Notes under the pieces: generated by a model
Databases searched by the model: none
What the model was told of the DNA's origin: nothing
The model's input: only the letters and a program-made list of their open reading frames with translations
Shown: in pieces, positions 2,633 through 48,175 of the stretch
How positions within the stretch are numbered: the first letter of the stretch is position 1
How the letters are laid out: every line of letters starts with the position of its first letter
Translations under genes and position numbers: made by a program
NCBI RefSeq assembly: GCF_900114355.1
Contig: NZ_FOSS01000005.1
Coordinates: 1-64,000 of the forward strand
DNA: 64,000 bases
From: Lysobacter sp. cf310
GTDB lineage: Bacteria > Pseudomonadota > Gammaproteobacteria > Xanthomonadales > Xanthomonadaceae
Direction of reading: 5' to 3'

Positions 2633-3308
2633 TCGCTACTCCCGCGCCGGCGGCGGCATTGCCGGCCAGCCATTGGTCCAGTTCGTCCAGTTGCGCCGAC
2701 AGTTCGGTCCAGCGGCGCGCGCGCCGCTCGTTGCCGTCGTCGGTCGCCTTGATCAACAGTTCGCTCTGCCGCATCAGCAGTTCGCCGGCGCCGCACTCGG
2801 GCAGCAGGCCGCTCACGCGCATGCCGTCGACCATGAACAGCAGGGTGTCCTCGTCGTGGAAGCTCGCGGCGCGGTCCTCGGGCACGGTCGCGCGCAGCGC
2901 GCGCCGCCAGTCGGCGACCATGCGCTTGGCCAGCGCGGCCGGCATCGGCACTTCGGCGACTTCCGGCTCCTGGTCCACGCGCATGCGCAGGGTGCCGCCG
3001 CTCCAGGACGCGACGCGGTCGTCGGCCTCGGCGTAGCGCAGGCGCCAATCGGCATCGCCCTCGCCCGGGATCAGCAGCAGGCCGCTCTCGGTGCTGTAGC
3101 GCGGCAGGGTGGTCAGGCTGAGCGTGGGCGTGGCGCCGGCCGCGAACAGGCGTTCGACCGCGCTGCCGTGGTTCTCGGTCGCCGGCGGCCAGCCGCGGCC
3201 CAGTTCGGGTTTGCACTCGTCGGCGGCGTACGCCAGTGGCGCGGCCAGCAACAGTGCGGTGATCGTTAACGCGAAGGCGGAAACAGAGAAGGCGCGGGAG
3301 TCGCTCAT
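2619..3308 (-). CDS. Exported hypothetical protein between aceF and lpdA
   Basis: A 229-aa protein with a typical signal peptide: a hydrophobic run TALLLAAPLAYA followed by AADECKP, suggesting cleavage after AYA. The mature part has two or three cysteines (CKPELG, LLPECGAG) that could form a periplasmic disulfide. I recognise no family. It overlaps lpdA by 14 bp, and the upstream NTF2-like gene is 21 bp away, so the group looks like one transcript. A link to pyruvate dehydrogenase is not apparent; it may be a passenger. Confidence 0.8.
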   Translation of the reverse strand: MSDSRAFSVSAFALTITALLLAAPLAYAADECKPELGRGWPPATENHGSAVERLFAAGATPTLSLTTLPRYSTESGLLLIPGEGDADWRLRYAEADDRVASWSGGTLRMRVDQEPEVAEVPMPAALAKRMVADWRRALRATVPEDRAASFHDEDTLLFMVDGMRVSGLLPECGAGELLMRQSELLIKATDDGNERRARRWTELSAQLDELDQWLAGNAAAGAGVANGND

Positions 3309-3329: not shown

Positions 3330-3809
3330 TCAGGGCGTGGTCGGGGGAATCACGGTGTTCTGGTCGTACACCAGGCGCCAGCCGTCGGACTCCTTGGCGA
3401 ACACCAGGCTGAGCCAGGCGCTGCGTCGGGTCTGATAGGCGCCGTCGGGCTGCCGGGTCTGCGATTCGTACTTCACCAACGCGACCCCGACGTCGCCGAG
3501 CTCGCGCACCGAATGGATCTGGAAGCGCATGCGCCAGTCCTGCTCGGCGAACCAGTCGACATGCAACTGGCGGAACTGCTCGCGGGTGTCGAGCACCTGA
3601 CCGTTAGGCAGGATCAGGGTGAGCTTATCGCCGCGAGTGACCGTCGCCAGCAGGGCGTCCAAGTCGCGCGCGTTGATCGCCGCCAGGTGCGCGTCCAAGG
3701 TCGCCTGCAGGTTGCGCGGCGGCGGCGCATCGGCGGCCGAGGCCGCCGTCGCCCACAGGCCGACGGCAAGCAACAGCCCGATCGCGCAGTGGCGAAGTCG
3801 GATCGGCAT
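3330..3809 (-). CDS. Exported NTF2-like (SnoaL/DUF4440-type) protein
   Basis: A 159-aa protein with signal peptide LLLAVGLWATAASAA. The mature part starts with the helix pattern LDAHLAAINARDLDALLATV. It continues through ILPNG, RMRFQIHSV and VALVKYESQ to the strand WLSLVFAKESDGWRLVYDQN. This is the usual run of an NTF2-like cone fold: helices, then curved sheet ending W-R-L-V. Members bind small ligands or act as enzymes, and the fold alone does not give the substrate. It lies 26 bp from aceF on the same strand. Confidence 0.75.
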   Translation of the reverse strand: MPIRLRHCAIGLLLAVGLWATAASAADAPPPRNLQATLDAHLAAINARDLDALLATVTRGDKLTLILPNGQVLDTREQFRQLHVDWFAEQDWRMRFQIHSVRELGDVGVALVKYESQTRQPDGAYQTRRSAWLSLVFAKESDGWRLVYDQNTVIPPTTP

Positions 3810-5450: not shown

Positions 5451-6239
5451 TTACTTCCTGGTCGTGACCTTGCTCCGCTCGGCCTTCGCGGTCATCAGAT
5501 TCAAGGGCTTGCCGTCGAGGCGGACTTCCAGCGAATCGTCGATCCGATCCAGCTCGACCATGCGCCGGCACAGGCTCTCGGCGCGCACTTCCAGGGCGTC
5601 GGCGCGCGGCTTGACCTTGGCCTCGACCTGCGCGTCCAGGTTCTCCAGGCGCTTGAGCCGGGTCTCGTCGCCGCTGAAGGCCGCGCCGATCGCGCCGCCG
5701 ACGATGTCGCCGATCAGGCTGGGGATCACCTCGGCCACGGCGTCGCCGATGCCCTCGCCCAGGTCGTCGCCGTTGAAATGGGTCGGCGTGACCGAGCGCG
5801 CCAGGCGTGCGTCGATCTGGGCGCGCGCCTTGTCCATCTTGGCGCGCGCGGTCTTGGGATCGCTGCTGAAGCTGGCCGCGACCTCGCCCAGGGCGGTGAA
5901 CGCGATCTCGGCGGCCTCGCGCCCGATCTGCTGGGCCTCGGGCATGGCGGCGCGGGTCTGCTGTTCGAAATCGGCGATGCGGCGGCTGTCGGCCGCGCTC
6001 AGGCTCAGCCACTTGTCGTCCACGAACAGCCGGCCCTGGCGCATCACGATCGCCTTGGGGGTGCCGGTGTCGCGGGTGAAGATCACGCTGCGCTCGTTGA
6101 GGGTCAGCTCGTAGTCGCTCTCGACGTTGCACTCGATCTCCGCGGCCCAGGCGCCGCCGCAGGACAAGGCCAGCAGGGTCAGCGCCAGCAGACGCGGCGC
6201 GAGGGAACGGGCGGGACGGATCTGGGCAGGGCGGCGCAT
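5451..6239 (-). CDS. YggN-like exported protein (DUF2884)
   Basis: A 262-aa protein with a signal peptide ending LLALSCGGAWAAE. The mature part shows the YggN/DUF2884 pattern: cysteine near the start (ECNVESDY), the segment FTRDTGTPKAIVMRQGRLFVD, then long amphipathic helices rich in Ala/Arg. The second cysteine lies near the C-terminus (ESLCRRMVELD). Members are periplasmic proteins of unknown role. It is 200 bp upstream of aceF on the same strand with no terminator seen between, so it may precede aceF in a transcript. Confidence 0.8.
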   Translation of the reverse strand: MRRPAQIRPARSLAPRLLALTLLALSCGGAWAAEIECNVESDYELTLNERSVIFTRDTGTPKAIVMRQGRLFVDDKWLSLSAADSRRIADFEQQTRAAMPEAQQIGREAAEIAFTALGEVAASFSSDPKTARAKMDKARAQIDARLARSVTPTHFNGDDLGEGIGDAVAEVIPSLIGDIVGGAIGAAFSGDETRLKRLENLDAQVEAKVKPRADALEVRAESLCRRMVELDRIDDSLEVRLDGKPLNLMTAKAERSKVTTRK

Positions 6240-6764
6240 CGTCGAACTCCATGTCGGGATGCGGCCATCATGCCGTGCGCGCGGCGGCGCGTCCCCTGCC
6301 GGTGGGGAGCGTGACCTTCGTCATGGCGCGGCGCAGCGGCGCCGCGACAAACGGCAGCGTTCATGGTCGGTTGCAAAGCGCCGCGCGCCGCGATTTCAAG
6401 ACGATCATCGGTATGCGCGTGAGCGACGGCCTCCATACGGTTCGCGCTTCGGCCGATATTCAGCATCGCCGCGCGCCGCGACTCCTTTCCATACGCAGCC
6501 CGCTGCGATGCGGTTTGCGCACAGCCGCGCCATGACCAGCGCAGCGTTCGCGGCGTGCTCGTTCAGCCAGGAAGCGGCGCGCTCGGCGCGCCCTTTCAAG
6601 CTCGGTTCATCACTGCGGGCACCGCCGCGCGACGGCGATCGCGACGCCGCGCGCGCAAAAGTTCCGAGCCGCGCGCTCGCGAAACAAGCACGGTTCATGC
6701 GCGAAGTCCTAGCCTGCGCACGCCTCCCCCAAGGCTCACAAAAGAAACTTAAGGAGTCCACGCC
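6240..6764. other. Gene-free stretch
   Basis: Divergent spacer between the YggN-like gene and the OmpW-like gene. I see no convincing coding frame. AAGGAG about 12 bases before the ATG at 6765 is the ribosome site of the OmpW-like gene. The 5' halves of both promoters must lie here, but no clear sigma-70 boxes stand out. Confidence 0.6.
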
Positions 6765-7409
6765 ATGATGCGTTTTCGTCATTTGACCCTCGCCCTGCTG
6801 GGCACCCTGGCCGTTGCCCCGGCCGCCTTCGCTCAGGACGCCGACACCGGCACCGCGGCGGGCAAGCGTTTCGCCGTCGTCGGCGGCTACGCCCTGTCCG
6901 AGCCGACCAAGAACCCGTCGATCGCCGGCGCCCGCGCCCAGGCCGACGGCGATGGCGCCGCCACCCTCAGCGCCAGCTACTACATCACCGACAACATCGC
7001 GGTCGAAGCCTGGGGCGCGGCCGACAAGTTCGGTCACCGCGTCAACCTCAACGGCGCCAAGGCCGGCAGCGTCGATGCGCAGCCCTACGCCGTGAGCGGC
7101 CAGTACCACTTCGGCGCGCCGGACAAGGTCGTGCGTCCGTTCGTGGGCCTGGGCTACTACGAGTCCAACTACAGCGGCGAGAAGGCCGAGCCGACCGGCG
7201 CATTGGCCGGCCAGCGCATCGGCGTGGAAACCGCCAAGGGCGCGATGGCCACCGCCGGCGTCGACCTCAACATCAACCCGACCTGGTTCGCGCGCGCCGA
7301 CGTGCGCTACCTGCAGGGCAAGTCCGACGCACGCGTCAACGGTGTCAAGGTCGGCGAGGCCGAGTTGAACCCGGTGGTCCTGGGTGTCGGCCTGGGTGCG
7401 CGCTTCTAA
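6765..7409 (+). CDS. OmpW-like outer-membrane beta-barrel protein
   Basis: A 214-aa protein with signal peptide LLGTLAVAPAAFAQD. The mature chain is a run of alternating strands: FAVVGGYALSEP, ATLSASYYITDNIAVEAWG, AVSGQYHFG, VRPFVGLGYYESNY, WFARADVRYLQG. It ends VVLGVGLGARF with terminal phenylalanine, as outer-membrane barrels do. The YITDNIAVE..G pattern and length fit the OmpW/AlkL group (8 strands), which form narrow channels for hydrophobic molecules. AAGGAG precedes the ATG, and a strong terminator follows 30 bp after the stop, so it is monocistronic. Confidence 0.85.
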   Translation: MMRFRHLTLALLGTLAVAPAAFAQDADTGTAAGKRFAVVGGYALSEPTKNPSIAGARAQADGDGAATLSASYYITDNIAVEAWGAADKFGHRVNLNGAKAGSVDAQPYAVSGQYHFGAPDKVVRPFVGLGYYESNYSGEKAEPTGALAGQRIGVETAKGAMATAGVDLNINPTWFARADVRYLQGKSDARVNGVKVGEAELNPVVLGVGLGARF

Positions 7410-7438
7410 GACCAGCGCGGCAACACGCAGCGACAACA

Positions 7439-7470
7439 GGCGGGCCCCGGCGACGGGGCCCGCCCTTTTT
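7439..7470 (+). terminator. Rho-independent terminator of the OmpW-like gene
   Basis: A perfect 11-bp stem (GGCGGGCCCCG / CGGGGCCCGCC) closed by a GCGA tetraloop is followed by CTTTTTG. It lies 30 bp after the stop codon. Confidence 0.95.
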
Positions 7471-7593
7471 GTGCGTCGCCGTCGGTTCCGATCCACGCCC
7501 GCCGCGCGCCGGCGCCGAATCCGGCGCTGGCGCACTGCTGCGCGCGCGCGCGCGTGGCTACACTCGCAGCTTCCGCCCCAGCCGAGTGCCGCC

Positions 7594-11625: not shown

Positions 11626-12153
11626 TCAGGCCAAGCGTCGACAACGCCGGCGCAATCCGAACGCGTAGCTCAGGTAGTAGCCCAGCATCATGCCGCCGAC
11701 CGCGAGCAGGCTGCCCTGGCGCGACAACCAGGCGTCGCGCGCGTCCTGCTGCCCCCACAAGTGCAACGCCTGCACCAGGCCGAAGCCCAGGCGCGCGGCG
11801 ACGATCAGGGTCAGCGCCAGCACCAGCCAGCGATTGGGCGTGTAGTACAGGCCGCCGGGCTCGGGCTCGAACCGGGTCAGGGCCAGCCCGGTCACGCCCA
11901 GCAACAGACCCAGCGCCACGCCGACCGCGGCGTAGACGCTGGCGTCGGCGATCCAGTGACCGACGATCCAGGCGCTGAGAAAGAACAGCAGCAGCGAGGC
12001 GAAGGTCGCCACCAGGTTCAGGGAAATCGTCCAAGCGATCGCGCGCCGGCGCGACTTGCCGTAGCGATAGCGCTGGATCAGCGCCACCGGCAGCAGCAAG
12101 GCCCCGAGCAGCATCATGAGCAGGACGAGCAGCGGGATCAGCAGCAGTTGCAT
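11626..12153 (-). CDS. Multi-pass membrane protein of unknown function
   Basis: A 175-aa protein with four or five membrane segments (LLLIPLLVLLMMLLGALLLPV; AWTISLNLVATFASLLLFFLSAWIV; AAVGVALGLLLGVTGLAL; WLVLALTLIVAARLGFG; LLAVGGMMLGYYLSYAFG) and a basic Arg-rich tail. A conserved-looking RYRYGKSRRRA loop follows the first segment. It may belong to the DUF1453-type small membrane proteins, but I cannot assign it firmly. No functional link to its neighbours. Confidence 0.75.
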   Translation of the reverse strand: MQLLLIPLLVLLMMLLGALLLPVALIQRYRYGKSRRRAIAWTISLNLVATFASLLLFFLSAWIVGHWIADASVYAAVGVALGLLLGVTGLALTRFEPEPGGLYYTPNRWLVLALTLIVAARLGFGLVQALHLWGQQDARDAWLSRQGSLLAVGGMMLGYYLSYAFGLRRRCRRLA

Positions 12154-34899: not shown

Positions 34900-35021
34900 T
34901 GAACGTCTTCATCGACATCGCCAAATCGCTCCAGCCGCGGCCCTTGCGCCACGGTAAGGACGCGTGCGCGCCGATGAACGTCGGCGATCGCATCGAAGCG
35001 CAGCTGCGCACTCCACACTGA
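34900..35021 (+). CDS. Possible 40-aa small protein
   Basis: MNVFIDIAKSLQ begins the frame, which ends LRTPH at a TGA. There is no clear ribosome site. Support comes only from its position inside the promoter-terminator unit at 34821-35106 and from ending 13 bp before the first hairpin. Confidence 0.25.
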
Positions 35022-35068
35022 CCTTGCCTATGCGGGAGGTCGGTGACCCCGACCTCCCGAGGAACGCG

Positions 35069-35106
35069 AACGCCCTCGGGTTCGAAACCCGGGGGCGTTT
35101 TGTTTT
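35069..35106 (+). terminator. Rho-independent terminator
   Basis: ACGCCCTCGGGTT and AACCCGGGGGCGT pair around a short CG loop and run into TTTTGTTTT. Confidence 0.9.
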
Positions 35107-35158
35107 CCGCGTCCGCGAAGGATCACTCTTCCTTTAATTCAGCGGTTTCCAGCCGGCC

Positions 35159-35317
35159 CCGAAGCATCCGCGCGCATTCGCGCGCCGCAGGGGCGTTGTC
35201 GTCGAGGCGCCGCAAGGCGCTGTGTCCGGATGCTTCGGCACGGGCGGTAGGGCGGGAGAACGCAAGGCATGGGGCGCACGCGCCCGCACGAATTGGCGTC
35301 TGGCGACAGACGCCAAT
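35159..35317 (+). ncRNA. Strongly structured non-coding segment upstream of the tRNA-like elements
   Basis: CCGAAGCATCCG (35159-35170) pairs perfectly with CGGATGCTTCGG (35225-35236). Inside lie CGCG-CATT-CGCG and GCGCC-GCAA-GGCGC hairpins, giving a three-way shape of 78 bases. A second hairpin, ATTGGCGTCTG-GCGA-CAGACGCCAAT, follows at 35292-35317 with a GNRA-type loop. No frame here looks coding. It may be a structured RNA linked to the RNA-repair genes, or operators; strand is assumed from the downstream operon. Confidence 0.4.
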
Positions 35318-35423
35318 GCGAAACATCGATCGAACGTTCCGCAGCGGCACGGGTTCGCATCCCGTCCGGTGCGCGCGGCCCTGCCGTTGCGTATGCCACG
35401 GGACGCCAGCGGTGTTTCGAAAA

Positions 35424-35492
35424 GCGACGTTAGCTCAGAGGCAAGAGCGGCGGATATTCCGCAGGTCGCCGGTTCGAGTCCGGCACGTTGAT
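35424..35492 (+). ncRNA. Degenerate tRNA-like element 1 (3-base anticodon loop)
   Basis: The D arm GCTC-N8-GAGC (35433-35448) and T arm GCCGG-TTCGAGT-CCGGC (35468-35484) are canonical. The acceptor GCGACGT/ACGTTGA pairs in six of seven positions, with a G-A mismatch at the end pair. Only 19 bases separate the D and T stems instead of the usual 23. The anticodon arm is GCGGA-TAT-TCCGC, a 5-bp stem closed by three bases, so it cannot decode. No CCA is encoded. Confidence 0.6.
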
Positions 35493-35566
35493 CACTGGAT
35501 AGCTCAGACGGTTAGAGCATCGGACTTTAATCCGACGGTCGCGGGTTCGAATCCCGTTCCGACAAC
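35493..35566 (+). ncRNA. Degenerate tRNA-like element 2 (6-base anticodon loop)
   Basis: The D arm is GCTC-N9-GAGC (35502-35518), and the T arm GCGGG-TTCGAAT-CCCGT (35541-35557). The anticodon arm TCGGA-CTTTAA-TCCGA has a 6-base loop; adding one T would give a lysine-type CTTTTAA loop. The acceptor is poor, with TGGA/TCCG only, and there is no CCA. It directly abuts element 1, and both point toward the slipin-RtcB operon. Confidence 0.6.
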
Positions 35567-35567
35567 T

Positions 35568-35955
35568 GCCTTTCACGCAGTCAGTGATACCGGGGGCGCA
35601 AGCCCCCACCCGGAAACGCCCCTTGCGGCGTTTCGACCGACGCCGCGTTTCGATGCGGCGGAGGACGGAGCGCCGCAGCGGCAACGACGCCGGACCCGCG
35701 CCCACGAGGCGAGGGACCGCGGCGGACGGCCGGACGCGACGGAACAGCGTCGCGCACCGGCTCCGCCACGGACCCTCGCCCAGCGCGCGCGGGTTCCGCG
35801 CCGACGCCGTCGGGGGCGCTTCCACCCCCTTCCGCTTTGCGGTCGCCGCGTGCGCGTGCGACCGCGACGTCCACGCAGCGCGCGACGAACGATCCGGTCG
35901 CGCGCCGTCCACACGACCGGATCGAAACCCGCAGAACACCTAAGGAGAAAGCGTC
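35568..35955 (+). other. Leader of the RNA-repair operon, rich in hairpins
   Basis: 388 bp without a supported gene. Hairpins include GGGGGC-GCAA-GCCCCC (35592-35607) and GAAACGCC-N6-GGCGTTTC (35613-35634). Others are GCCGC/GCGGC near 35642 and GCGACG-N6-CGTCGC near 35741. A TAAGGAGA ribosome site lies at the end. I see no sigma-54 consensus, which RtcR-type control would need. Confidence 0.45.
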
Positions 35956-37086
35956 ATGTTCTGGAACAAGCGGGTCGTGGTCGGCGACGCCGAGCGCGCC
36001 CTGATCTACCGCAACCGCCGTTTCGAGCGCGTGCTCGGACCGGGCGTCTATCGCATCGTCGACTGGCGCGGCCGCACCGAGGTGGTGCTGCACGACATCG
36101 CCAAGCCGGAGTACGCCGGCAAGGACACCGACGCGCTGGTGGCCGCGCTGGGCGCGCGTCTGGGCGAACACTTCGTCCTGGCCGACATCGGCGTCGATCA
36201 GGTGGGCCTGGTGATGAAGAACGGCAAGCTCGAGGACCTGCTCGCGCCGGGCTCGCGCAAGCTGTACTGGAAGGGCCTGGTCCCGATCGAGGTCGTCGCC
36301 ACGACCCTGTCGGCGGGTCTGGAGCTGCGGAGCGAGATCGCGCAGCGCCTGCGCCAGATCGGCCTGCTCGATCGCGTCGCTCTGGCGGTGACCGTGCCCA
36401 ACGATTCGGCGGGCCTGCTCTACGTCGACGGCAAGCTGGTGCGCACGCTGGACGCCGGCAGCTACGCCTACTGGAATTTCCAGAAGAACGTCGCCGTCGA
36501 GCTGGTCGAGCTGCGCGTGCAGTCGGTCGAGGTCTCGGGCCAGGAGCTGTTGACGCGCGACAAGGTATCGCTGCGCGTGAACCTGGCCGCGAGCATGCGC
36601 GTGACCGATCCGGTCGCCACGCGCAGCAAGGTGGCCAAGGTCAATGACTACCTGTACCGCGAGCTGCAGTACGGCCTGCGCAAGGCGGTCTCGGCCAAGA
36701 CCCTGGACGAGCTGCTCGGCGACAAGGCCTCGCTGGACGCCGACATCTACGGCTACGTGCGCGACCAGCTCGACGGTCTCGGCGTGGAAGTGCTGGGCGT
36801 GGGCGTCAAGGACGTGATCCTGCCGGGCGAGATGAAGGAAATCCTCAACGGCGTGGTGCAAGCGGAGAAGACGGCCCAGGCCAACGTGATCCGCCGTCGC
36901 GAGGAGGCCAACGCCACGCGCAGCCTGCTCAACACCGCCAAGCTGATCGAGGACAGCCCGACGCTGATGCGCCTGAAGGAGCTGGAGGCGCTGGAGAAGG
37001 TCACCGAGAAGATCGACAAGCTCACCGTCTTCGGCGGCCTGGACGGCGTGCTCAAGCAGCTGGTCAGCCTCAAGAGCGGCGGCTGA
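35956..37086 (+). CDS. Slipin-like SPFH/band-7 protein of the RNA-repair operon
   Basis: 376 aa. It opens MFWNKRVVVGDAERALIYRNRRFERVLGPGVY, the usual slipin start but without a membrane hairpin, so it is probably soluble. The SPFH core (ELVELRVQSVEVSGQELLTRDKVSLRVNLAASMRVTDP) is followed by a coiled coil (LNGVVQAEKTAQANVIRRREEANATRSLLNTAKLIED). SPFH proteins form ring-like oligomers. Association of slipins with RtcB ligases is a recurrent operon pattern. AAGGAGA precedes the ATG by eight bases. Downstream are the unknown protein and rtcB. Confidence 0.88.
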   Translation: MFWNKRVVVGDAERALIYRNRRFERVLGPGVYRIVDWRGRTEVVLHDIAKPEYAGKDTDALVAALGARLGEHFVLADIGVDQVGLVMKNGKLEDLLAPGSRKLYWKGLVPIEVVATTLSAGLELRSEIAQRLRQIGLLDRVALAVTVPNDSAGLLYVDGKLVRTLDAGSYAYWNFQKNVAVELVELRVQSVEVSGQELLTRDKVSLRVNLAASMRVTDPVATRSKVAKVNDYLYRELQYGLRKAVSAKTLDELLGDKASLDADIYGYVRDQLDGLGVEVLGVGVKDVILPGEMKEILNGVVQAEKTAQANVIRRREEANATRSLLNTAKLIEDSPTLMRLKELEALEKVTEKIDKLTVFGGLDGVLKQLVSLKSGG

Positions 37087-37191: not shown

Positions 37192-37995
37192 ATGCGTAAG
37201 GACATGTACAAGGTCATCGTGGAACGGCCGCGGCGCGGAGGTCGCTACAGCAGCGAACGCCGCCCCTCGACCGATCCCGAGGACCAGACCCAACGCGAAA
37301 GCCTCAAGTTCCGCCATCGTTCGCACAAGTGGCTCAACGAGAACCTCAACCCGCTGCGGCGCTACCTCGAAGGACAGGTGGGCCGGCGCTGGGACCAGGT
37401 CTACTCGGAGCTGTGCGCGCGCATCGACCGCCGCAACACCGTGCAGCAGCACATCCACCAGCACCTCGACCAGTTCGTCGCGCTGCGGGTGGTCGCGTTC
37501 GACGGCAGGCTCCACCTCGACCACGGTTGGGGCGGCCTGAAACCGCTGAGCGATCCCTGGTCGCCGAAGTTGTACGTGGATCCGGACAGCGGCTTGCTGC
37601 TGAACAACGATGAGGCGATCGCGGCCAGGCGTGCGCTGCGGCGTCGGCGCGCGCTCGAACGTGCGGCGAAGGCGTCGCCGGATCTGCGTCGCGTCGACGA
37701 ACTGCATCAGCTGCGCCGCATCGACGGCATCTGGTACGAGGTCGAACTGGCCCCGTTGCCCGAAACGGCCGCACTGACGAGCGTACGCGGCAAGCCGGCT
37801 CAGTTCACGATGCCGTTCGATGTGATCGCCAGGCGCCCGGCCCGCTGGATCGGCAAGCCCTGCGGTCATCGCGCCTGCGGGGCCTGCAAACCTTACGGTC
37901 GCAGCGACCTGTACGCGCGCAGCAAGCGCCAGCTGAATCGGCACGAGCTGCAGCGTTACGGCTTGCGTAACCACGACGGCGAACATCTGCATTAA
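37192..37995 (+). CDS. Unknown basic protein of the slipin-RtcB operon
   Basis: 267 aa from the ATG at 37192; a TTG at 37180 is possible. It is rich in Arg and His: FRHRSHKWLNENLNPLRRYLEGQVGRRWDQVYSEL, then QQHIHQHLDQFVALRVVAFDG, and a C-terminal CGHRACGAC cluster that could bind zinc, followed by a basic tail (YARSKRQLNRHELQRYG). The pattern suggests an RNA-binding protein. I recognise no named family. It sits between slipin and rtcB, with an unusually strong hairpin separating it from rtcB. Confidence 0.8.
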   Translation: MRKDMYKVIVERPRRGGRYSSERRPSTDPEDQTQRESLKFRHRSHKWLNENLNPLRRYLEGQVGRRWDQVYSELCARIDRRNTVQQHIHQHLDQFVALRVVAFDGRLHLDHGWGGLKPLSDPWSPKLYVDPDSGLLLNNDEAIAARRALRRRRALERAAKASPDLRRVDELHQLRRIDGIWYEVELAPLPETAALTSVRGKPAQFTMPFDVIARRPARWIGKPCGHRACGACKPYGRSDLYARSKRQLNRHELQRYGLRNHDGEHLH

Positions 37996-38053: not shown

Positions 38054-39268
38054 ATGAATCATCAATACGAACTGCTGCATGCACCGGGCGCCACGCCGAT
38101 CAAGGGCTGGGTGCGCGGCGTACCGCTGGACGAACAGGCCCACCGCCAGTTGCAGAACATCGCCGCCCTGCCCTTCGTCGGGCCCTGGGTGGCGGTGATG
38201 CCCGACGTCCATCTGGGCAAGGGCGCGACCGTGGGATCGGTGGTGCCGACCCGTGGCGCGATCGTTCCGGCCGCGGTCGGCGTCGACATCGGCTGCGGCA
38301 TGGCCGCGGTGCGCACCACCCTGCGCGCCAAGGACCTGCCCGACAGCCTGGCCCTGCTGCGCTCGTCGATCGAACGCAGCGTGCCGGTCGGCAACGGTCC
38401 CGGCGGCGATCACCGCAAGCGACCCGACAGCATCGACACCCGGCTCGCGCAGTCCGGGCTGATGGCGCGGCTGGAGGCCGTGCGCGCGCGCCATCCGAAG
38501 ATCCGCTACGACAAGGTGGACAAGCAGCTGGGCACGCTCGGCGGCGGCAACCACTTCATCGAGATCTGTCTGGACGAGGCCGATGCGGTGTGGGTGATGC
38601 TGCACTCGGGTTCGCGCGGCACCGGCAACCTGATCGGCACCTACTTCATCGAGCTGGCCCGGCGCGAGCTGGAGCGGCGCGTGCTCGGCTTCCACCTGCC
38701 CGACAAGGACCTGGCCTTCTTCCTGGAGGGCGAGCCCCTGTTCGAGCACTACGTCGAGGCGGTGTCGTGGGCGCAGGACTACGCGCGCCACAACCGCGAG
38801 GCGATGATGGCGCGCGTGCTGCACGAGCTGCGCCAGCGCCTGCCGAAGTTCCAGTTGGAGAAGATGGCGGTCAACTGCCACCACAACTATGTGCAGCGCG
38901 AGCAGCACCACGGCGAATCCCTGCTGGTCACCCGCAAGGGCGCGGTCAGCGCGCGCGCGGGCGAGCTGGGGATCATTCCGGGCAGCATGGGCACGCGCAG
39001 CTACATCGTGCGCGGCAAGGGCAACGCCGACAGCTTCCACAGCTGCAGCCACGGCGCCGGCCGGGTGATGAGCCGCACCCAGGCGCGTCAGAGCATCACC
39101 CTCAAGCAGCACCGCGAGGCCACCGCCCACGTCGAATGCCGCAAGGACGCGGCGGTGATCGACGAATCGCCGGCGGCCTACAAATCGATCGACGCGGTCA
39201 TGGCCGCGCAGACCGATCTGGTCGAGGTGCTGCATACCTTGCGCCAGGTGATCTGCATCAAGGGATGA
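38054..39268 (+). CDS. rtcB: RtcB RNA ligase
   Basis: A 404-aa ligase that joins RNA 2',3'-cyclic phosphate (via 3'-phosphate) to 5'-OH ends using GTP and manganese. Motifs: MPDVHLGKGATVGSV, GVDIGCGM with the metal-binding cysteine, LGGGNHFIE, HSGSRGTG, INCHHNY-like NCHHNYV, and SCSHGAGRVMSR with the histidine that becomes guanylylated. Length equals E. coli RtcB. AGGAG lies seven bases before the ATG. There is no RtcA cyclase or RtcR regulator in the window. With slipin and the two tRNA-like elements upstream, repair of cleaved tRNA is the likely task. Confidence 0.97.
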   Translation: MNHQYELLHAPGATPIKGWVRGVPLDEQAHRQLQNIAALPFVGPWVAVMPDVHLGKGATVGSVVPTRGAIVPAAVGVDIGCGMAAVRTTLRAKDLPDSLALLRSSIERSVPVGNGPGGDHRKRPDSIDTRLAQSGLMARLEAVRARHPKIRYDKVDKQLGTLGGGNHFIEICLDEADAVWVMLHSGSRGTGNLIGTYFIELARRELERRVLGFHLPDKDLAFFLEGEPLFEHYVEAVSWAQDYARHNREAMMARVLHELRQRLPKFQLEKMAVNCHHNYVQREQHHGESLLVTRKGAVSARAGELGIIPGSMGTRSYIVRGKGNADSFHSCSHGAGRVMSRTQARQSITLKQHREATAHVECRKDAAVIDESPAAYKSIDAVMAAQTDLVEVLHTLRQVICIKG

Positions 39269-48057: not shown

Positions 48058-48175
48058 GCTTGCGAGCCGCTGGCTCGCGCCGCACCGAAGACCCGACCGC
48101 GAGGCGGTCGGGCCGGGGCACAGGGTGGACTGCGAACGCTCGCGGCGTCCTCAGCGGTTCGGCGTCACGCCCGCC

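Follow-up and report, generated by a model that had tools for sequence, protein, structure and literature searches.

What are two tRNA-like elements, neither of which resembles a normal decoding tRNA, doing in front of the genes of an RNA-repair operon? The question is raised by a locus of Lysobacter sp. cf310 that lies within the first 64,000 nucleotides of contig NZ_FOSS01000005.1 (assembly GCF_900114355.1), the whole stretch of DNA that was analysed and to which we refer as the window. The initial annotation of this DNA described two tandem tRNA-like elements at 35424-35566 with anticodon loops of 3 and 6 nucleotides, imperfect acceptors and no CCA, and placed them directly 5' of an RNA ligase operon. 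Here we describe a larger conserved structured RNA that encloses both elements and goes beyond what was annotated, and we argue that it may be the RNA partner of one subfamily of slipins. The elements, E1 and E2, and the genes that follow them are these.

35424-35491, + strand: E1, tRNA-like element with a shortened anticodon arm (3-nt loop); Rfam tRNA, 44.1 bits
35493-35564, + strand: E2, tRNA-like element with a four-bp acceptor (6-nt anticodon loop); Rfam tRNA, 48.1 bits
35956-37083, + strand: slipin, an SPFH/Band_7 protein of 376 aa; Pfam Band_7, 1.1e-29
37192-37992, + strand: 267-aa protein of unknown family; no Pfam or NCBIfam match
38054-39265, + strand: RtcB RNA ligase; Pfam RtcB, 2.1e-124

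Two tRNA-like elements upstream of slipin

The Rfam tRNA model, whose gathering score is 29, matches the window at 35424-35492 (44.1 bits) and 35497-35560 (48.1 bits), which bears out the two annotated elements; these are the lowest two scores among the 47 tRNA matches of the whole genome, and ARAGORN called no tRNA in the window. Direct reading agrees with the annotation on the loop lengths, the imperfect acceptors and the missing CCA. In E1 six of the seven acceptor pairs are formed, the D stem is GCTC/GAGC, the anticodon arm reads GCGGA-TAT-TCCGC and the T arm GCCGG-TTCGAGT-CCGGC. E2 forms only the inner four acceptor pairs, one of them a G.U, and combines a perfect D stem with the anticodon arm TCGGA-CTTTAA-TCCGA and the T arm GCGGG-TTCGAAT-CCCGT, which includes one G.U. 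Both elements have the D arm, the T arm and the elbow bases of a canonical tRNA, and both lack its 7-nt anticodon loop with U33 (3 nt in E1, 6 nt in E2), its 7-bp acceptor and its 3' CCA; the annotation was right that they are not normal decoding tRNAs.

Conservation of the elements across slipin loci

Conservation was assessed in 45 slipin loci that were collected via the slipin or the 267-aa protein, the RNA not being a selection criterion. The set spans gamma- and betaproteobacteria, including Lysobacter, E. coli, Citrobacter, Photobacterium and Burkholderia, with many genomes from the window's class, one Clostridia record (L089) and five genomes from another class of the phylum (L115-L119), which we infer to be probably the Alphaproteobacteria. 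Within the window's class, and not counting the window, 14 of 274 genomes encode a full-length slipin relative (E<1e-70), as do 14 of 249 Pseudomonadota genomes when the window is counted (E<=1e-60); nine plasmid or megaplasmid records contain slipin relatives, six of which were taken into the set. None of 50,697 phage records contains a slipin relative at E<=1e-10, and a phage origin was rejected. In the Burkholderia stagnalis locus L090, two overlapping slipin matches at 6001-7587 may represent a partial duplication.

At least one element lies 5' of slipin in all 13 Lysobacteraceae loci (the window, L001-L006 and L023-L028). When the parse tolerates deviant anticodon arms, 40 of the 45 loci have one or more elements, a count that includes L065 and L111, where the parse is wrong though a real element is visible by eye, and L070 and L090, where the match lies more than 700 nt away; in 900 Markov-randomised regions the same parse returned 4 matches. 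Under a stricter threshold, 34 of 45 loci have an element no more than 700 nt from slipin and on the same strand, and the 31.5 kb directly 5' of slipin contain 53 matches versus 20 in the 1,044.7 kb elsewhere in the same loci, an enrichment of about 88-fold. Eighteen of those 20 fall in four tRNA-array loci and in L090, with one each in L074 and L089. The arrays, which lie around or 5' of slipin, consist of largely normal tRNAs (L067, 940-4317; L109, 6368-9412; L110, 6542-7710; L070, 4709-5904) and comprise, according to ARAGORN and with the elements of the RNA included, 13, 8, 4 (one of them E2) and 5 tRNAs, respectively; they suggest that RNA-repair loci are linked to an inducible supply of tRNAs.

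In the five loci where nothing was parsed (L066, L076, L087, L089, L092), a hairpin resembling a T arm, if not more, is visible by eye in each. The leaders of E. coli and Citrobacter are reduced, again by eye, to a core hairpin and a T arm, so complete tRNA bodies are not required everywhere. This E. coli leader together with slipin is matched in 1624 of 5426 complete E. coli genomes, 1621 of them at a coverage of at least 80%.

A larger structured RNA around E1 and E2

Alignment and folding place E1 and E2 in a predicted structured RNA of about 600 nt that is composed of a 5' core, E1, E2, an isolated anticodon-stem-loop mimic (ASL) and a folded 3' domain. Its parts in the window, beyond E1 and E2, are listed below.

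35292-35317, + strand: perfect 11-bp inverted repeat just 5' of the core, kept in 12 of 12 aligned Lysobacteraceae sequences
35319-35421, + strand: 5' core of the RNA (alignment, RNAalifold, covariance model R1)
35320-35328/35410-35418, + strand: core helix P1, which with P2 closes a junction
35335-35340/35400-35405, + strand: core helix P2, which with P1 closes the junction
about 35345-35368, + strand: core hairpin P3, inside the P1/P2 junction
to about 35397, + strand: core helix P4 with a bulged UA, inside the P1/P2 junction
35565-35581, + strand: ASL, 5 bp with a 7-nt loop CU-NNN-A-A/C, abutting the 3' end of E2 (alignment)
35593-35606, + strand: hairpin GGGGC-GCAA-GCCCC with a GNRA loop, two-sided changes at 2 of 5 pairs (RNAalifold, 11 Lysobacteraceae sequences)
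35612-35823, + strand: 3' domain closed by the long-range helix 35612-35622/35813-35823 (RNAalifold consensus, 11 Lysobacteraceae sequences)
35890-35924, + strand: possible 11-bp hairpin 35890-35900/35914-35924 before the ribosome-binding site (direct reading; RNAalifold prefers another pairing)

The inverted repeat shows two-sided changes at 5 of its 11 pairs, its innermost pair being lost to a gap in one sequence, and it could be either an RNA hairpin or a DNA operator. Across the 12 sequences aligned over 35291-35421, two-sided changes are seen at 15 of 45 predicted pairs; P4 is invariant within Lysobacteraceae and was set by hand from distant sequences, replacing the RNAalifold pairing. 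In L002 the P3 loop contains 164 bases with long inverted repeats (3115-3278), compared with about 7 in other Lysobacteraceae, and the stem is intact. Further upstream, at 34900-35110 of the window, a short ORF (about 40 aa, by eye) is followed by a terminator-like hairpin with a TTCGAAA loop, both 5' of the RNA; this terminator block is conserved in Lysobacteraceae.

The covariance model R1 was built from 12 Lysobacteraceae cores, and its E-values are rough. Of 25 distinct loci from outside the family, it locates the core in 13 at E<=0.1, 5' of slipin and on the right strand, the best of them, L103 and L104 from another class, at about 1e-9; inside the family it also matches G071 (L102). Its matches in L088, L090 and L091 (E 0.002-0.007) are correctly placed too, as is a weak one in L089 (E 0.19). 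Off-target matches occur in L088 at 11977-12070 (E 0.0033, better than the on-target E of 0.0065), in the window at 48062-48161 (E 0.049), in L037 at 1828-1927 (E 0.1) and in L003 at 3528-3578 (E 0.019). Over 200 genomes nine were matched at E<=0.1, two of them strongly (G000, G071); the seven weak matches (E 0.002-0.097), none of which belongs to the slipin genomes of the phylum search, were taken as chance, and R1 is too narrow for phylum-wide co-occurrence. The core was also aligned over 42 of the 45 loci using anchors chosen by eye, R1 being the less biased test; this alignment omits L002 because of its insertion (R1 finds the core there) and L067 and L076, in which the core was not located. 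Here pairing in P3 and P4 reaches 92.9%, two-sided changes number 64 where shuffled alignments give 16.1, and 30 of 500 shuffles reach the observed number of pair types.

The ASL was aligned in 27 of the 45 loci (25 distinct), leaving unused the scan hairpins of L003, L067, L076, L087, L109 (its own E2 arm), L110 and L111. It is 99.2% paired and shows two-sided changes at 4 of 5 pairs (48 changes versus 14.1 in shuffles) with a covariation score of 0.975 versus 0.226; the number of pairs with a two-sided change, reached by 392 of 500 shuffles, and the number of pair types, reached by 185 of 500, are not above chance. C32, U33 and A37 are each present in 26 of 27 loops, a conservation that is due partly to selection of the sample, because the hairpins were gathered via a scan for the loop consensus. 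Just 3' of the ASL, seven loci (L063, L064, L065, L068, L072, L108, L110) display by eye a GNRA/UUCG-type and a T-arm-like hairpin, as if a third tRNA without a D arm were present.

Since the GNRA hairpin and the large 3' domain follow in Lysobacteraceae, to which the evidence for the 3' domain is confined, structure is predicted for most of the sequence between about 35319 and slipin; in the 11-sequence Lysobacteraceae alignment of 35582-35955, two-sided changes are found at 30 of 62 predicted pairs.

What E1 and E2 keep and lose

The E1 alignment comprises 21 copies: L117, L118 and L119 were left out as low-scoring and irregular, L023, L075 and L112 were added from ARAGORN, and the middle one of the three elements of L074 was used. 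The E2 alignment covers 33 of the 45 loci in 32 distinct rows and counts as E2 the single elements of L063, L064, L068, L072, L073, L088 (GNRA-capped), L109 and others; it omits L065, L067, L108, L110 and L111, the five unparsed loci, and L070 and L090, whose elements lie more than 700 nt away.

In E1, 94.0% of pair cells are formed (69.2% in shuffled alignments), and 95 two-sided changes (24.9 in shuffles) include all seven acceptor pairs and all five anticodon-stem pairs. U8, A14, G19, T54, T55, C56, A58 and C61 are invariant in all 21 copies. Nineteen of 21 copies (20 of 24 with L117-L119 restored) have an anticodon arm that falls short of the standard 17 nt, and a 7-nt loop with U33 is present in a single copy (3 of 24 with the same three restored). 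A GNRA tetraloop caps the anticodon arm in 3 of 21 (L003, L027, L028) and caps the single element of L088 as well, and the elements of L090, L118 and L111 have a similar look. Some E1 copies, namely those of L115, L116 and L118, end in CCA.

E2 is kept differently along its length, with 89.1% of pair cells formed overall, made up of 100% in the T arm, 99.2% in the D arm, 96.2% in the anticodon stem and 70.5% in the acceptor, whose three outer pairs are unpaired in 14-22 of the 32 distinct rows. Two-sided changes affect all five pairs of the anticodon stem; U8 is found in 30 of 33 copies, and A14, G19, T54, T55, C56, A58 and C61 in all 33. Of the 33 copies, 24 have an anticodon arm of 17 nt and 18 have a 7-nt loop with U33, these 18 being made up of 13 of the 20 copies outside Lysobacteraceae and 5 of the 13 inside. 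Because of these 18, the description of E2 copies with a 7-nt loop as non-decoding rests on the acceptor.

Compensatory changes are thus present in every arm of E1 and E2, as well as in the core and the ASL, and exceed shuffled and slid controls on most measures. The pairing of the arms and the invariance of the elbow argue that selection has kept an L-shaped tRNA body with a five-bp anticodon stem and, in E1, no anticodon.

Slipin as the constant neighbour among the loci seen

Three genes accompany the RNA in the window, and the annotation tied the elements to the RNA-repair operon as a whole. That tie stands; the constant neighbour of the RNA among the loci seen, which were chosen by slipin or the 267-aa protein, is slipin and not RtcB or the 267-aa protein. 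The slipins belong to a subfamily that in the window (35956-37083) has an N-terminal region of about 145 aa before Band_7, with repeats resembling 'V..xERGLxF..xxxxLxPGxY'. The core lies 270-740 nt 5' of the slipin ATG in 40 of 42 loci and farther away in L070 (1517) and L090 (906), the slipin start of the latter being uncertain.

A tblastn search places the 267-aa protein beside slipin in the 13 Lysobacteraceae loci and in no other member of the set, and its closest records come from Lysobacter and other Lysobacteraceae/Xanthomonadaceae. Its AlphaFold model has a mean pLDDT of 69, and a Foldseek search with this weak model returned no match at E<=0.001. A tie of the RNA to this protein was rejected: the other 32 slipin loci are without it (tblastn) and most carry the RNA, and six control loci with the protein and without slipin (L007, L008, L029-L032) gave no tRNA match, L030-L032 having weak matches to the protein only and L029 holding RtcR and RtcB.

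The position directly 5' of an RNA ligase operon, correct in the window, does not hold as a general rule. The rtcB gene is located 5' of the RNA in L064, L072 (with rtcA), L108 and L110, where the core is present, and in L067, where only the elements are; because rtcB precedes the RNA in these five loci, the RNA is not simply the 5' end of the operon. In L115-L119, tblastn finds no RtcB in the roughly 11 kb covered, and the RNA still stands with slipin. Another repair gene, RlaP (PF10127), follows slipin in E. coli, and RlaP relatives are near slipin in 9 of 45 loci.

Sigma-54 promoters and RtcR in part of the loci

Seven loci (L087, L088, L090, L092, L111-L113) have a sigma-54 promoter with at most two mismatches 32-37 nt before P3. 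All except L087 also have an adjacent rtcR. Two further two-mismatch sites lie off the core (L002 at -286, L090 at -1257), and weaker sites are frequent on both strands. The scan gave no site in five other loci with an adjacent rtcR (L072, L074, L076, L091, L108), two of which, L074 and L091, have near-sites by eye in which GA replaces the GC at -12, and no well-placed site in the Lysobacter loci; the genome of the window encodes RtcR on another contig. RtcR is above the cut-off in 17 of 33 slipin genomes. In Salmonella, RtcR is activated by tRNA fragments (PMC7790460).

TROVE matches exceed the cut-off in 3 of the 33 slipin genomes and are partial and away from the slipin locus. In two genomes divergent TROVE-domain matches are situated about 1 kb from rtcR and off the slipin locus (G062 C1:370052, G116 C1:5019041), and two RNA-repair modules may share one regulator there.

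A proposed cognate RNA for slipin

With a probability of about one in two, we read E1 and E2 as domains of a conserved structured RNA that would serve one slipin subfamily as its cognate RNA in RNA repair, a reading drawn from comparative sequence analysis. The slipin RNA would most likely be a trans-acting tRNA mimic that serves a slipin-centred repair machinery. Upon tRNA breakage RtcR would switch on the RNA together with the enzymes, in several lineages from the sigma-54 promoter; the RNA might then be excised from a longer transcript and assemble with slipin into a particle that promotes tRNA repair. In the E1 form, its tRNA bodies would escape ordinary charging and decoding and would present little target for anticodon nucleases. 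The tRNA bodies may be what the slipin-RtcB/RlaP machinery binds as its RNA ligand; they would hold or recruit those parts that recognise the elbow, and damaged tRNAs would be handled on a membrane scaffold.

The reading is supported by the compensatory changes in the arms of E1 and E2, the core and the ASL, by the combination of invariant elbow bases with a free or shortened anticodon loop, by the enrichment of elements 5' of slipin and by the ability of a model made from Lysobacteraceae only to locate the core in 13 of 25 outside loci. It is further supported by the RNA remaining beside slipin where rtcB precedes it or is not found, by the negative slipin-less loci with the 267-aa protein, and by the sigma-54 sites before P3 with RtcR adjacent in six of the seven. 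Several observations count against it: Lysobacter has no well-placed sigma-54 site and, in the window's genome, RtcR is on another contig; five loci with adjacent rtcR have no site in the scan; the E. coli and Citrobacter leaders are reduced; many E2 loops are 7-mers with U33; and L067, L109 and L110 carry full tRNA arrays.

As a long shot, the functions of a tRNA might be split among the parts, with an undecodable and uncuttable body (E1), a short-acceptor body (E2) and a free anticodon loop (ASL). An RNP on the slipin membrane cage would then capture broken tRNAs via their elbows, while the ASL would report nuclease attack when cut and be re-sealed by RtcB, making the RNA scaffold, uncleavable reference and damage sensor at once.

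Alternative explanations

The main rival to a cognate RNA, possible if clearly the less probable, is a cis-acting leader. As a 5' UTR or intercistronic leader, the RNA would set slipin expression: intact tRNA-like folds or bound repair proteins would keep slipin off, cleavage of the ASL or E2 loop or competition from broken tRNAs would turn it on, and RtcB could reset the switch by ligation. The location of the core 270-740 nt ahead of the slipin ATG in 40 of 42 loci and the retention of anticodon-loop mimics that a nuclease could cut are what such a leader would have; yet neither a terminator nor clear sequestration of the ribosome-binding site is visible by eye near slipin in the window, the size, the 3' domain and the tandem tRNA bodies go beyond the needs of a switch, and RtcR already provides damage-dependent transcription in several lineages.

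Next comes punctuation, in which the elements would be RNase P/RNase Z signals for cutting the transcript and freeing the core RNA or the mRNA. These enzymes read the acceptor and T arm, so anticodons would be free to change, and the well-kept acceptor and T arm of E1, the CCA that ends some E1 copies and an E. coli leader that retains little beyond the T arm all fit. RNase P does not require an anticodon stem, but in E1 and E2 alike each of the five pairs of that stem is maintained through two-sided changes, the outer acceptor pairs of E2 are mostly unpaired, and the retention of an extra anticodon-loop mimic is left unexplained; we consider this alternative unlikely.

Still less probable is a reserve or decoy role, in which the locus would respond to tRNA cleavage by replacing the lost tRNAs or by soaking up the anticodon nucleases, the Lysobacter versions having degenerated. 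It draws on the full arrays at L067 (13, ARAGORN), L109 (8) and L110 (4, one being E2), on the U33 7-nt loops of E2 in 13 of 20 loci outside Lysobacteraceae and on Anabaena, where a single repressor controls rtcB, a slipin gene and an operon of 26 tRNA genes (PMC10272220). E1 speaks against it: as 20 of 21 copies lack the 7-nt loop with U33, E1 neither replaces a tRNA nor offers the usual cleavage site, and the annotation's proposal of a decoy for anticodon nucleases fits it poorly, a short or capped loop leaving little to cut. The annotation's other two suggestions, that the elements mimic damaged tRNA or recruit the repair proteins as guides, may apply.

Dead tRNA genes left in an intergenic region would account for abnormal loops, imperfect acceptors and missing CCA, but the annotation's own signs of decay, absence from close relatives or random loss of the arms, are contradicted by the alignments, in which the elements occupy an equivalent position in many genera, every arm shows compensatory change and the elbow bases do not vary, and this explanation is rejected for the RNA family.

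Comparison with known systems

In kind, the association of a tRNA-like RNA with slipin is known. The abstract of a 2016 study by Burroughs and Aravind (Nucleic Acids Res) reportedly names SPFH/Band-7 modules of RNA-repair systems that have 'a novel tRNA-like molecule' as their cognate noncoding RNA, and on this ground we rate the association as known. The likeness is a tRNA-like RNA beside a Band-7 gene, parallel to Y RNA with TROVE; under the strict threshold, 34 of the 45 loci in our set have a tRNA-like RNA that adjoins the Band-7 gene of an RNA-repair locus, with Band_7, RtcB and RlaP identified by Pfam. What is apparently new is the detail: the architecture with its 5' core, the pairing of E2 with a non-decoding E1 whose loops are shortened or GNRA-capped, the anticodon hairpin detached from any tRNA, and the spacing of the sigma-54 promoter. 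The accessible portions of the literature on combinations of RtcB, slipin and tRNA-like RNAs yielded no description of this RNA, and Rfam 15, run on the leaders of 38 of the 45 loci (L090, L109-L111, L114, L116 and L119 left out), matched only tRNA at gathering scores. GOLLD and ROOL are large ornate structured RNAs associated with tRNAs; neither has an Rfam match in the window or the leader.

A conserved RNA with a tRNA elbow and no anticodon would provide a concrete ligand with which to approach the role of slipin and the recognition of broken tRNAs. Lysobacter root isolates carry it, the 1621 E. coli genomes counted above have a reduced form, and annotation tools read such elements as odd tRNAs, ARAGORN labelling them 'tRNA-???' in the loci of relatives.

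The canonical tRNA (Rfam RF00005) shares the D and T arms and the elbow bases; it differs in that here the anticodon loop is short or altered, the E2 acceptor is short, CCA is absent in the window and the elements are embedded in a larger RNA. The trn operon of Anabaena under TrcR resembles the slipin loci in that tRNA genes are co-regulated with rtcB and a slipin gene under translational stress, and differs in being a separate megaplasmid operon of 26 tRNA genes that is co-regulated in trans and is no slipin leader (PMC10272220).

The bacterial Y RNA YrlA (Rfam RF02553; rsr-yrlBA-rtcBA operons) is likewise a tRNA-like RNA inside an RtcB operon. No YrlA fragments were seen on tRNA cleavage, YrlA did not prove to be a nuclease substrate, and its tRNA-like domain was suggested to inhibit the nuclease competitively (PMC7790460). 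Identity with Y RNA was rejected, since Rfam YrlA scores 30.0 bits in the window against a gathering score of 69 and no TROVE match occurs in G000 or at the slipin loci. YrlA has a different architecture and neighbours Rsr/TROVE, in contrast to the slipin found here. If our reading is true, the slipin RNA would be a TROVE-independent tRNA mimic built into an RNA-repair operon, and would be the partner of slipin as Y RNA is the partner of Rsr.
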